The notes under the pieces are model-generated. The model was not told where the DNA came from and did not search any database. It saw only the letters and a program-made list of their open reading frames with translations. A DNA stretch of 61,053 nucleotides from positions 1 through 61,053 of the IMG/VR virus record IMGVR_UViG_3300032278_004243; one strand, 5' to 3'. A program made the translations under genes and the position numbers. The first letter of the stretch is position 1. Each line of letters starts with the position of its first letter. Below, one piece after another: positions 14,330-19,023 of the stretch. This DNA is from a virus.

Positions 14330-16024
14330 TCAGAAAGCGTAAACAGAAGCGTTGCTGACGAGGCGCTGATTGACCGAGTCCTGATGCCCGGCGATGTCGT
14401 TGGCGACGTCATGAGCGCCAGCGCCGTGGACGTGGATATCGGTCTTCTGGTTGATCGCCAGTCCGCCGCGGCCCGCACCCGACACACCAAGGTACTGACC
14501 TGCCCTGCGCAGGTCCCCGCGCGCGCCGGCCGGGCCCGGTGCTTCGAACTGGTCGATGACGACAGCTGCAACCTGCATCGCATCGCGCATGCGCTTGATA
14601 CGGTCGCCAACCGCCGAATGTGTGGTGCGCAGCTCGTGCGCGACAAACTGGATCTGCTCCGCGAAGGTCGACTGATAGATCGAATGGCCGAACTTGCGGG
14701 CGAACTCGGCAACCCGGCTCTTTGTCAGCCATTGCGCGAGACCATAGGCACCGCTGCCTTCCCCGTTCCAGCGACGCTCGTTGAGACCAGATTCCGCCCA
14801 AAGCGCGGCCGCGATGCCCTTGGCCGCAGGAGCCGAAAAGCCGGATGCCATGAGCAGCTGTTCGGCTCTCCGCGACCTGGGCGTGTTGCTGTCCGCTGTC
14901 TGGCCGCCCGGCACGTAACCGCGGCCTCCGTTGTCGTTTGCGCCGCCCCGCATCCAATCCGGGGTCAGGTTATTGGGGTCGCCGATCGGATCGGTGCCAT
15001 TGCGCCTGTACCTGTCAGACCCATAGCCGACCAAGGCGTCTGCGGTGTTGTCGAGTGCGCCGGAGGCTTCATAAGCGACGTTCTTCGCATCGCTCCAAGC
15101 GGCGGCCCAGTTCCCGTTCAGAACATCAGTAACCAGCTTCACCAAGCCGGTCAGCCCCTTGATGACGTGGCCAAGCGCGCTAAGCATCTTGTCGGCGAAG
15201 TTCTGCATGTACGGCGTCGCGGCCAGCTGGCCGAGTGCATCGAGCAGCGACATCACGTCTTTGACGATCTTCTGGAACTCGCCGCCGACACCCGACAGCT
15301 TTTTGCCCGACACGATGTCCTGAACCCAGCGCGAAAGCGCCTCGAGCTTGGGCAGCAGCCATTCCATGCCCTTGTAGAGCGCCACATCGAACGCCAGCCC
15401 TGCCTCGGCCTTCATCTCGCGCAAGCGGGTCGAAAATTCATTCGCCTTCCCGGCGACCGCGTCGAGGTCGATGCCGAGATTCTGCGCGAACTGCTTGTAC
15501 TGGTCCTCGAATTGCCCCTGATCGCGCAGCATGGCTTGCAGCTGGATCAGGTCGATCCCGAGCACGCTCGCGAACGCCTTGGCCCGGAAGTAGGGCATGC
15601 TCTGGAACGTGCGCTCCAGATCGCGCGCCATCGCGACGGCGTCGCCCATATCTTCCGGGGAGACCCCGAGCCGGCGCAGGAAACCTTGTGCGCCCGGCGA
15701 GGACTTGGCGAACTCGGCCAGGTTCTCGAGCATGGCCTGCGCGCCCTGCGTCGAGCCGCCGAGCTGGCTCATGGCATAACCGAACGACTTGATGTCGGCA
15801 GCGGACGAGTTCAGCCGCTGGGTTTTCCAGTACAGCTGGTCCATGTCCTGCGCCATTGAGACGACGGCGGCGGTGACCTGCTTGGCGACATCGTACATCG
15901 CCTCGCCGAGTGCGACGGCTTTTGCGGTGGCGAACTCGAGGCCCTCGTTGAACTTCTTCTCGCTCTTGGGATCAACCTTGAAGCCAAGGCCGACCAAGAA
16001 CTCTTTGATCACATTGTCGGCCAT
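14330..16024 (-). CDS. Tape measure protein with lysozyme-like domain
   Basis: I start at the ATG at 16024 (MADNVIKEFLVGLGF), where the family normally begins, giving 564 residues. The N-terminal 350 residues are mostly helical and include GFKVDPKSEKKFNEGLE and hydrophobic helices, as expected of a tape measure that sets tail length. Residues of about 385-490 form a phage tail lysozyme domain (GFSAPAAKGIAAALWAESGLN...YGLAQWL) with a candidate catalytic Glu in WAESGLN near residue 412, probably for local cell wall cutting at injection. The protein is short for a tape measure, predicting a short contractile tail. Confidence 0.85.
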   Translation of the reverse strand: MADNVIKEFLVGLGFKVDPKSEKKFNEGLEFATAKAVALGEAMYDVAKQVTAAVVSMAQDMDQLYWKTQRLNSSAADIKSFGYAMSQLGGSTQGAQAMLENLAEFAKSSPGAQGFLRRLGVSPEDMGDAVAMARDLERTFQSMPYFRAKAFASVLGIDLIQLQAMLRDQGQFEDQYKQFAQNLGIDLDAVAGKANEFSTRLREMKAEAGLAFDVALYKGMEWLLPKLEALSRWVQDIVSGKKLSGVGGEFQKIVKDVMSLLDALGQLAATPYMQNFADKMLSALGHVIKGLTGLVKLVTDVLNGNWAAAWSDAKNVAYEASGALDNTADALVGYGSDRYRRNGTDPIGDPNNLTPDWMRGGANDNGGRGYVPGGQTADSNTPRSRRAEQLLMASGFSAPAAKGIAAALWAESGLNERRWNGEGSGAYGLAQWLTKSRVAEFARKFGHSIYQSTFAEQIQFVAHELRTTHSAVGDRIKRMRDAMQVAAVVIDQFEAPGPAGARGDLRRAGQYLGVSGAGRGGLAINQKTDIHVHGAGAHDVANDIAGHQDSVNQRLVSNASVYAF

Positions 16025-16113: not shown

Positions 16114-16473
16114 ATGCGATGGATTGCCTTGGGGCTCGCTGCATTGCTGGCAGTCGGGCCAGCGATTGCTCAGACCAAATTGAGTCCCGATGAGCGGCAG
16201 GATCTGATCGCCGCAGATGAGCGAGCCATCATCGACGCGAGGTTGAGGCTGGCCCGAGACCGCGCGATCATCGCGCAGGAGCGCAAGGTCGGAGCCGTTT
16301 CCGGGGTCGTTAACAAGCAGACGCTTCATGCCGCCGGGTCGGACATTGTGCGGATCGAGGAGCAGCTTCCAAAGCTCTATGCCCGGTATCGCGCGCATGG
16401 CGGCACCAAGCCGCTGGCGAAGATCGTTCCCAAGCCCGGTGCGACCTATAAGCCGAACCCATTCGACTACTGA
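16114..16473 (+). CDS. Secreted small helical protein (probable moron)
   Basis: This 119-residue protein is read against the surrounding tail operon. An AGGAGG lies 7 bases before the ATG. It has a clear Sec signal peptide (MRWIALGLAALLAVGPAIAQ, cleavage after AIA), then a charged helical region (DERQDLIAADERAIIDARLRLARDRAIIAQERK). It is squeezed between the tape measure and the tail chaperone genes and ends 1 base before the convergent DUF6889-like gene. Such an insert with its own ribosome binding site on the opposite strand is typical of a moron expressed in the lysogen. No family recognised; the product is predicted periplasmic. Confidence 0.75.
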   Translation: MRWIALGLAALLAVGPAIAQTKLSPDERQDLIAADERAIIDARLRLARDRAIIAQERKVGAVSGVVNKQTLHAAGSDIVRIEEQLPKLYARYRAHGGTKPLAKIVPKPGATYKPNPFDY

Positions 16474-16474
16474 C

Positions 16475-16645
16475 CTACCGCCCGCGCAGCGCCATCTCCA
16501 TGCGCCGCTGGTTCTCGTCCCTGACCGTTATGGCATTGTTCAGCCGGGCGATATCGCCGAGGCCGAGTGTGCCATCGAGCAAGCTTTCGTACTTGCACAT
16601 ACCCTCGATAACCGGCCGGAGGATCCAATCCTCGCCGTCCGGCAT
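16475..16645 (-). CDS. DUF6889-like protein (possible independent start)
   Basis: If initiated at its own ATG (16645) this gives a 56-residue protein, MPDGEDWILRPV...MCKYESLLDGTLGLGDIARLN, resembling the DUF6889 family found after tail chaperones. There is no good Shine-Dalgarno sequence before this ATG (a GGGGAG lies about 20 bases away), which favours the frameshift fusion as the main route of expression. Its stop is 1 base from the convergent secreted-protein gene. Confidence 0.55.
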   Translation of the reverse strand: MPDGEDWILRPVIEGMCKYESLLDGTLGLGDIARLNNAITVRDENQRRMEMALRGR

Positions 16646-17058
16646 CGAGACGGGCTCGAAGCTTAGCTCCCCGCCGGGAGCGAACCCGAGCGGAGGCTGG
16701 TAAAAAAATCGGAGAGGTTCGCCTGCAGCGTGGCCCAGGTCAGGCGGAGCATGTCCGGCATGGCGATGTCGGCGAACATCATCTGATTGTGGCGGAACAC
16801 TGGTGCCCATCCGGCGTCGCCATCCTGGCGGCGCATGCAGCCGTTGAGGCATTTCGCGATGATGTACTCGCTGTCCGCATCGGATAGCTCGCTGATGGCC
16901 TGCATCAAGACCGAGAGAATATCACCCCCTTCGGCGCCGTCGCGCATCGCCGCCAGCACGCCGCCGAGGCGCCGCGTGATGTGAAACTGTGACATCGCAT
17001 CGAGCTTAGCCAGCCGGTAGCTGTAGCCGTTGACCTCGATTTCCTCGGCGCCGGTCAT
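16475..17058 (-). CDS. Tail chaperone - DUF6889 fusion made by -1 frameshift
   Basis: Predicted translational fusion of 194 residues: 119 codons of the tail assembly chaperone up to the heptamer at 16708-16702, then a -1 shift and 75 residues of the following frame. The shifted frame continues NLSDFF-YQPPLGFAPGG and runs without a stop into MPDGEDWILRPVIEG. Known parallels are lambda G/GT and P2 E/E', where the long form holds the tape measure during tail assembly. The unshifted frame stops soon after the site, giving the shorter chaperone. The ratio cannot be read from sequence. Confidence 0.65.
16663..17058 (-). CDS. Tail assembly chaperone (short form)
   Basis: This 131-residue helical protein (MTGAEEIEVNGYSYRLAKLDAMSQFHITRRLGGVLA) follows the tail tube gene with a 1-base stop-start overlap (TGATG). 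Size, position between tube and tape measure, and the slippery heptamer 13 codons from its end match the tail assembly chaperones (G-like proteins). Only the last 12 residues (TSLRSGSLPAGS) differ from the frameshifted form. Confidence 0.75.
   Translation of the reverse strand: MTGAEEIEVNGYSYRLAKLDAMSQFHITRRLGGVLAAMRDGAEGGDILSVLMQAISELSDADSEYIIAKCLNGCMRRQDGDAGWAPVFRHNQMMFADIAMPDMLRLTWATLQANLSDFFTSLRSGSLPAGS
16702..16708 (-). promoter_or_regulatory. Slippery heptamer T TTT TTT for -1 frameshift
   Basis: On the coding (minus) strand there are seven consecutive T, phased GA(T TTT TTT)ACC in the chaperone frame. This is a perfect X XXY YYZ heptamer, the same class as T TTT TTG in P2 gene E. A G/C-rich region with inverted segments follows (GCCTCC ... 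GGGAGC type pairing, 16664-16695), which could form a stimulating stem-loop. Shifting by -1 joins precisely to the open frame of the DUF6889-like gene. Confidence 0.7.
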
Positions 17059-17525
17059 CAGATACCCCCGATCACGGCCGCCGGCGTGCCGGTGCCGAGG
17101 CGCTCTTCGATTCTGGTGGCATCAAACGTCCATTCCAGCACCGGCCCTTCCTTGTCGTAGACAACGTCAGGCAGCTTCCGGAAAGCGCAGCCGTAGCAGG
17201 TGATGTGATCACCGCGCGCATAGTCGCGGATGGAGATCACGTTCTTGCCCCAGACGATCGAGCTCGCCTTATCAGCGTTGTACATCGACATCAGCAGGGC
17301 GTTGACCGGCGAAGTCTTGAGGAGGCGAACCGTCACGTTGCCCGAATTGTCGGCGTGCAGCGAGTTCATCCCGGAACCGTCGGCACCAATGGTCAAGGTG
17401 TTCTTGTCTCCCCGCATAGCGGTCGTGATACCGCCCTCAGACACGCCGGCACCGGCCCCGAGCTGGATGTTGCCGTTGGGCCCAGCAATGGCCGCGACGA
17501 CGTTCTGGAAAGAGTAGGATCCCAT
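17058..17525 (-). CDS. Tail tube protein (DUF3277-like)
   Basis: This 155-residue protein starts MGSYSFQNVVAAIAGPNGNIQLGAGAG and contains GGITTAMRGDKNTLTIGADG, NSGNVTVRLLKTSPVNALLM and a C-terminal GPVLEWTFDATRIEERLG. These are the typical blocks of DUF3277 tube proteins, which form the inner tube of contractile tails. It directly follows the sheath gene, as expected. Confidence 0.85.
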   Translation of the reverse strand: MGSYSFQNVVAAIAGPNGNIQLGAGAGVSEGGITTAMRGDKNTLTIGADGSGMNSLHADNSGNVTVRLLKTSPVNALLMSMYNADKASSIVWGKNVISIRDYARGDHITCYGCAFRKLPDVVYDKEGPVLEWTFDATRIEERLGTGTPAAVIGGI

Positions 17526-17538
17526 CGGTCAGGACTCC

Positions 17539-19023
17539 TTAGCGGTTGACGTTGAGGACGGCGTTCACGGTGTGGACCGCGCCCGCGAGCTTGACGGCCA
17601 CCTGGATCGGCGGCGACTTTCTTGCGGCGCGGTCCGGCGCGCTCTGCGTCGAGATCGGCGGCGCGTAGATGTAGTAGCCGTTCGACAAGGTATCGCCGGT
17701 CTGCAGCTGGCCAAAACCCGCCGCCTGCCACGTCCCCGGTGCGACCAGCCCGTTTGTGATCGCCGCCTCCATCGACTGGTCGATGACGTTGACGATCTGG
17801 TGAATACCCGGATCGGTCTGCGGCACCTTGGGCTGAGAGGCGAGCAGGTTGAAGAGGTTGGTCTGGATTCGGTTCTGCAGCCAGTCGAGCCCGAAGATCT
17901 CGTCGATGTAGGCCAGACCGAAGCAGCAGCCGTTCACCAGCACCGAAGCGCCGTTCTGGAAATTGGCGAAGTAGTTGTAGCGCTTGGTGTCGAGCACGCT
18001 CGCTGCGTTCTGCGACAGCGGCTCGTAAGGCACGCCCGGCTCAACCTTCCACGCCACAGTGGGCATCGTGTTCGAGCCATTGAACTGCGTCGTCAGGATC
18101 GAGCCGAAGATCGAAATCACCGCGTAGGCATTCGTGGTCGAATACTGCCCGAAGGTCCGCTTGTAGCCAGCCGCGATCAGCTGCGAACCGATATCGGTGT
18201 TCGATGCGCTGTTGACCGCGTTGGCGTCGGCGGTGGTCAGGCCGAAGATGTGAGTGGTTGCCTCAATGAAGGCAGCGATCGCGAGGTAGTCGGAGTTGCT
18301 CGGCATCGTCGATGCGGCAAATGTGAGGCCATACCAGTACGTCGGGTTCGCATCGAGCGCGGTAACCGCCGCCAGCGCGCTTTCTGCTGCAATGCCGGCG
18401 ACCGCATAGGCTCCCGCGGCAGCTGTGCCGCCAAGCAAGCCGGAGATATCGGTGCCACTTGCCGGCGCCTGAAGCAGCGAGACCGCCGAGGTGGTGCCGG
18501 TGGTGGTCGATACGATCTGGAACTGGCTGCCGGTCCAGACGCAGGTTGCAGCGAGCGATGCACCGGTGAGAGCGGTGGTGATCAGCGAGGCAACCTGAGA
18601 CAGGCTCGTGGCGCTGGAGAGGTTGATGCCGGTTACGCTGGTCAGCGAGCCGCCATTGACCTGCACCTTGAAGCCACCGGAGGTCACCGCGGTGAAATTG
18701 GCCAATGCCTGCTGCGCCGCGGTCAGCGGAGCACCGTAGACCGCACCAGACGTCGCCGTGCGGGCCCAGCGGCCGATGTAGAGCTGGGTCGGCTGCGGGC
18801 TCTGGCCGAAGAACAGCTGAGCCGCGGCATATTCAGGCGCGCTGGTGCCGAAGTCGGCAGCGACGCCGGCGAGGCTGTTGTAGCTCCGGATCCGGGTCTG
18901 CGTGTCGATGACGGCGGAGTCGCCGAGCAGTAGGAGGGTCTCGATGTTCGCGTACTGCGCGCCCGCAGGCGTCAGGTTCACACTTGCGGTGATCAGCCGC
19001 GAGACGGGAAGTCCAGTGGTCAT
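17539..19023 (-). CDS. Contractile tail sheath protein (DUF3383)
   Basis: This 494-residue protein opens LPVSRLITASVNLTPAGAQYANIETLLLLGDS and contains QLFFGQSPQPTQLYIGRWA, a large insertion domain (about 110-200) and a conserved C-terminal half (AWKVEPGVPYEPLSQNAASVLDTKRYNYF, then INGCCFGLAYIDEIFGLDWLQN). These are features of DUF3383 sheath proteins. Presence of a sheath shows the particle is a contractile-tailed phage. Confidence 0.85.
   Translation of the reverse strand: MTTGLPVSRLITASVNLTPAGAQYANIETLLLLGDSAVIDTQTRIRSYNSLAGVAADFGTSAPEYAAAQLFFGQSPQPTQLYIGRWARTATSGAVYGAPLTAAQQALANFTAVTSGGFKVQVNGGSLTSVTGINLSSATSLSQVASLITTALTGASLAATCVWTGSQFQIVSTTTGTTSAVSLLQAPASGTDISGLLGGTAAAGAYAVAGIAAESALAAVTALDANPTYWYGLTFAASTMPSNSDYLAIAAFIEATTHIFGLTTADANAVNSASNTDIGSQLIAAGYKRTFGQYSTTNAYAVISIFGSILTTQFNGSNTMPTVAWKVEPGVPYEPLSQNAASVLDTKRYNYFANFQNGASVLVNGCCFGLAYIDEIFGLDWLQNRIQTNLFNLLASQPKVPQTDPGIHQIVNVIDQSMEAAITNGLVAPGTWQAAGFGQLQTGDTLSNGYYIYAPPISTQSAPDRAARKSPPIQVAVKLAGAVHTVNAVLNVNR

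Follow-up and report, generated by a model that had tools for sequence, protein, structure and literature searches.

Programmed frameshifting in tail assembly chaperone genes is already well known as a device. In phage lambda, the gpG/gpGT pair is made through a -1 shift on G GGA AAG, and in phage P2 the E/E+E' pair uses the slippery site T TTT TTG. The lambda system has been described by Levin 1993 and by Xu 2004, 2013 and 2014, as cited in PMC5009743, and the same source cites Xu et al. 2004 for the wide distribution of frameshifted chaperones. A version from the Vandenendeviridae and Andersonviridae, with TAC-N/TAC-NC products and a conserved GTTTTT, was published in December 2025 for phage Adele (PMC12846349). 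In addition, the GenBank depositors of Burkholderia phage Magia and Klebsiella phage Mulock annotate a “tape measure chaperone frameshift product”. These two phages carry the pair homologous to the one analyzed here, with sites C CCT TTT and T TTT TTG, and the -1 join is made by annotation only. No paper naming DUF6889, the domain encoded by the second frame, was found in a literature search.

Here we analyze this pair in a 61,053-nucleotide stretch of viral DNA (IMG/VR record IMGVR_UViG_3300032278_004243), which is referred to throughout as the window. As in lambda, the tape measure gene lies just downstream of the chaperone gene, which would yield a short form and a rare -1 fusion and has the heptamer near its 3' end. 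Unlike lambda, the window phage is contractile-tailed, and its heptamer and the Pfam families of its chaperone and C-domain are different. The likeness to P2 is drawn on two traits, namely that both are myoviruses and that both have a slippery site of the T-rich class. The Vandenendeviridae system shares the PF21822 chaperone and a -1 C-domain encoded ahead of the tape measure gene, but has a shorter slippery motif (GTT TTT) and a more divergent C-domain. The parallel with lambda and P2 that was drawn in the initial annotation is apt with respect to gene order, chaperone fold and site type. With the comparison reported below, the predicted frameshift is now well supported; the long minor form of the chaperone is very probably produced by ribosomes that slip back one base on seven Ts.

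The chaperone gene and the overlapping frame

The late genes of the window are encoded on the minus strand. The features that define the locus are as follows:

17539..19023, minus strand: tail sheath-type protein (DUF3383; PF11863, E=6e-119)
17058..17525, minus strand: tail tube protein of the KPP10_Orf10 / DUF3277 type (PF11681, E=2e-49), directly upstream of the chaperone gene
17058..16663, minus strand: tail assembly chaperone, short (G-like) product of 131 aa (PF21822 Phage_TAC_15)
16708..16702, minus strand: slippery heptamer T TTT TTT, candidate -1 frameshift site in the phase X XXY YYZ, conserved across clusters of relatives
16475..16702, minus strand: -1 extension of 75 aa plus stop, comprising a linker of ~20 aa and then DUF6889 (PF21829, phrog_4364, AF2 model)
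14330..16024, minus strand: tape measure / tail lysozyme protein with probable start ATG 16024 (Phage_lysozyme2; alignment with the tape measure proteins of relatives)

The ATG of the chaperone gene overlaps the tail tube stop codon, and the gene ends with a TAA at 16665..16663. Its product matches PF21822 in a Pfam search (E=3e-22; 79.9 bits against a curated cut-off of 22) and the tail assembly chaperone family phrog_1688 in a PHROG search (E=5e-31). In the chaperone frame, the codons around the heptamer read CTC TCC GAT TTT TTT ACC AGC, and 12 sense codons separate the heptamer from the stop. The first codon past a -1 shift would be TAC (16702..16700), with base 16702 read twice, followed by CAG CCT; the -1 frame is open from the heptamer to a stop at 16477..16475. 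The predicted fusion has 119 + 75 = 194 aa and contains the junction peptide ...LSDFFYQPPLGF... Residues 36-69 of the extension match PF21829 (DUF6889) with E=2.6e-13 and 49.9 bits, against a curated cut-off of 23.9, and the extension also matches phrog_4364, a family with function listed as unknown (E=4e-16). The next late gene past this frame is the tape measure / tail lysozyme gene. The coordinates, the in-phase heptamer and the 194-residue fusion given in the initial annotation could all be re-derived from the sequence, and the second frame, which it called DUF6889-like, matches that family above the curated cut-off.

The DUF6889 stop is separated from the tape measure start (~16024) by ~450 bp, a gap that most relatives lack. 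It is filled by a 119-aa ORF at 16114..16473 (plus strand), which has an AGGAGG-like Shine-Dalgarno sequence and a signal-peptide-like start (MRWIALGLAALLAVGPAIAQ) and for which Pfam gave no match and PHROG none that was convincing. Antisense ORFs with signal-peptide-like starts are present in the same gap of two relatives (L002:3586-4643 and L027:3564-4450, both on the minus strand), and the gaps of L166, L038 and L190 contain no such antisense ORF. The gap is a possible recurring insertion site for cargo genes of secreted proteins.

Conservation of the frame relation and the slippery site

Relatives were gathered from phage records, viral contigs and bacterial genomes on the basis of DUF6889 similarity; a single-protein query of bacterial genomes provided nine, the closest in Novosphingobium. 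All 192 resulting loci encode DUF6889 and 189 also encode the chaperone, the other three contigs starting inside or at the site. About 1,550 genomes were also sampled for PF21829 and contained few prophages, and these loci are kept outside the counts. Overlapping frames in an exact -1 relation, found in the window between the tail tube and tape measure genes, are present in 188 of the 189 loci with both parts. The loci were collapsed at 85% nucleotide identity into 114 clusters, and the -1 frame is uninterrupted from the site onward in all -1-related relatives examined as clusters. The sole exception to the frame relation is L041, with GGC GAT TTT TTC G compared to GGC GAT TTT TTT CG in the closely related L032; near position 2990, L041 has six Ts in place of seven. 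This one-base difference may be a homopolymer miscall or a real loss of one base.

A canonical in-phase heptamer (with Y = T or A) is present in 105 of the 114 clusters. It occupies homologous codons in 104 of these, as T TTT TTN (78), C CCT TTY (20), A AAT TTT (4) or G GGT TTT (2), and in L008 it is G GGA AAT, located one codon upstream. The initial annotation had proposed to look for the heptamer at the same place in other phages with DUF6889, where these 104 clusters have it. It had also held that homologues in unrelated frames with no slippery run would speak against a frameshift; this check did not refute the proposal, as the relatives show the -1 relation and the canonical heptamer at the frequencies given above.

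The window's single site, taken alone, is only suggestive. When synonymous codons in the overlap were re-drawn at random, 17% of the re-drawings of the window gene contained some in-phase heptamer, and comparison with relatives is needed for this reason. Across the 114 clusters, 101 have an in-phase heptamer against 13.1 expected, under a definition slightly narrower than that used for the count of 105. An accidental overlap between two genes, with a T run of no significance, could account for a heptamer in the window gene at the former rate, but not for one that is kept in 105 clusters and in distant phage groups. This explanation is refuted by the comparative data and has practically no probability left.

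The constraint extends to individual bases. The third base of the codon before the conserved Phe is T in all 114 clusters, compared to ~25 expected, and the codon itself is CCT, GGT, GAT, AAT, AGT, CGT or ACT (Pro, Gly, Asp, Asn, Ser, Arg, Thr). Because the third base is always T while the amino acid varies, it is the RNA rather than the protein that is conserved at the site. The conserved Phe is encoded by TTT in 107 of 112 cases, compared to 253 of 642 for Phe elsewhere in the gene. The same third-base constraint was found in no other column of the chaperone, except for the next codon of the T run. As the clusters share ancestry, they lack full independence and nominal P values would exaggerate the case; weight is put on the counts instead.

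A homopolymer of six or seven Ts is present at the site in 74 clusters, as might be anticipated if transcriptional slippage on the T run gave rise to mixed mRNAs, some of them shifted by one base. Bacterial transcriptional slippage generally requires longer runs. The conserved trait, moreover, is the in-phase XXXYYYZ and not the length of the run. Since 29 clusters carry only four Ts, most of them codon-phased as C CCT TTT or A AAT TTT, we consider transcriptional slippage extremely unlikely.

Nine clusters are outside the canonical set. Eight of these (L010, L056, L074, L082, L091, L098, L123, L128) have only T TTT followed by A, for example in GGG CCT TTT ATT and GAT TTT ATG, and retain an intact -1 domain. 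Such sites may function through re-pairing of a single tRNA, may shift at another rate or may not shift. The remaining cluster, L161, has no clear site.

Possible start codons in the second frame

DUF6889 could alternatively be a separate gene with its own start inside or past the chaperone gene, an arrangement that has been proposed for T4-like phages. The -1 frame of the window does contain ATG codons at 16852, 16810 and 16645, and some start with a Shine-Dalgarno-like 4-mer occurs in 34 of the 114 clusters. Likewise, the 16 annotated phage records inspected include seven that list a separate ORF, often truncated, with two that join the frames and seven that annotate nothing. However, none of the three candidate starts in the window has a Shine-Dalgarno-like 4-mer 5-14 nt upstream, and the remark in the initial annotation that this frame lacks a good ribosome site holds for the window. 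The remaining 80 clusters, the window among them, have no start with such a 4-mer in the -1 frame up to the domain core. There is no ATG, GTG or TTG between the site and the core in 30 clusters, and 18 lack any start codon over the entire -1 frame up to the core. In 28 clusters, the open stretch of this frame extends only 0-5 codons upstream from the site. On account of these counts and of where the frame opens, DUF6889 is not in general a separate gene. A separate gene would also leave the fixed -1 phase and the NNT TTT constraint unexplained, and we regard it as very unlikely.

Downstream RNA structure

One candidate for a stimulatory element was located in the window:

16662..16698, minus strand: candidate stimulatory hairpin just 3' of the heptamer (z = -1.88; matched in folding by 11 of 200 shuffles)

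The hairpin is weakly supported and is not conserved among relatives. Stronger folding downstream of the site was not found in the relatives over 60 nt (mean z -0.44, compared to -0.36 in control windows), and over 90 nt the mean z was -0.91, compared to -0.40 in control windows. Downstream RNA structure was rejected as a general stimulator, as the folding of the relatives is close to that of the controls.

Protein models

The AF2 model of the chaperone has a pLDDT of 87, and its top two matches among solved chains are 5IR0 (Z 8.4) and 2OB9 (Z 5.3). These Z scores are middling, yet both matches are tail assembly chaperones, 2OB9 that of HK97 and 5IR0 that of the V. cholerae satellite PLE1 (PMC12987554). 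The DUF6889 extension is modeled with a pLDDT of 88 (93-97 in the core) as a flexible linker leading into a small helical domain, with helices at residues 25-32, 38-42 and 48-74. A Foldseek search of the PDB with this model gave no meaningful match. Against viral models the E-values were weak, and the match at rank 2 is a protein of Pectobacterium phage PM1, which fits the PM1_050 protein described below. Sequence searches of solved structures with the chaperone and DUF6889 profiles returned nothing relevant.

A putative wider family of -1 C-domains

More distant phages were reached by searching with the tail tube protein. Rhizobium phages RHEph04 and RHph_I65, Pasteurella phage Pmp2 and Myoviridae sp. 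ctfzr933 combine a PF21822 chaperone with a -1 domain that precedes the tape measure gene, and their in-phase heptamer is T TTT TTC or T TTT TTT. Nearly all Kleczkowskavirus-like loci with a readable chaperone end have T TTT TTN, with L243 as an exception. When DUF6889 was aligned with the Kleczkowskavirus-like C-domain using hhalign, the probability was 95.9 (E=5e-9), compared to 4.6 for the best of 30 column shuffles.

In the Chaseviridae, PM1_050 (L244:37319-37477) is a 52-aa “hypothetical protein” encoded between the chaperone and tape measure genes. Its DUF6889 score lies slightly below the cut-off and, like the window's extension, it strongly matches phrog_4364; a T TTT TTC is found upstream, 30 codons before the chaperone stop. 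We read PM1_050 as the truncated C-domain of a chaperone that is predicted to be frameshifted. PseuGesM_254, of the Vandenendeviridae type, has a PF21822 chaperone (E=5e-24) and a GTT TTT site. Its C-domain matches phrog_4625 and phrog_3976, the latter of which weakly matches DUF6889 too, and a viral-contig search with this C-domain gave no matches.

We take the C-domains of DUF6889, phrog_4364, phrog_3976 and phrog_4625 as one putative T-domain group, in which the link to phrog_4625 is indirect and the weakest. On balance, we lean towards the view that they constitute one ancient T-domain superfamily, which at least five contractile-tailed phage groups express through a -1 shift out of a PF21822 chaperone. 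Its site would have drifted among T TTT TTN, C CCT TTY and A AAT TTT, with a bare T TTT A in some lineages. If this is true, the latter lineages would require slippage of a single tRNA.

Proposed mechanism and significance

The explanation that best accounts for these observations, and in which we have high confidence, is that the chaperone is made in two forms, the rare 194-aa form with DUF6889 being produced through a -1 slip on T TTT TTT. The frames, the site and its conservation, the domains, the gene order and the predicted chaperone fold are read from the sequence, and the shift and its rate are inferred. Most ribosomes would stop at the TAA at 16665..16663 and release the 131-aa short form. 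In a minority, the tRNA-Phe molecules paired with T TTT TTT in both the P and the A site would move back one base and re-pair with TTT TTT; these ribosomes would then read TAC CAG CCT and onward to 16475, yielding the 194-aa form.

If the lambda gpG/gpGT pair is taken as a model, the N-terminal part common to both forms would coat the tape measure protein, which is encoded next, and the rare DUF6889 tail would recruit the tail tube protein, which is encoded just before. With the tape measure protein coated and the tube protein recruited, the tube would therefore polymerise around the tape measure. Because of its position and mode of expression, DUF6889 is likely to be the equivalent of the T-domain and hence a putative tube recruiter, with the tube protein as its presumed binding partner.

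Most annotations of this chaperone/DUF6889 locus are incomplete. The relatives also provide naturally occurring slippery sites of several types at a single homologous position, which are useful for relating site type to frameshift rate. For DUF6889 and the related families of unknown function, the analysis provides a likely function, as the putative tube-recruiting tail of a tail assembly chaperone.
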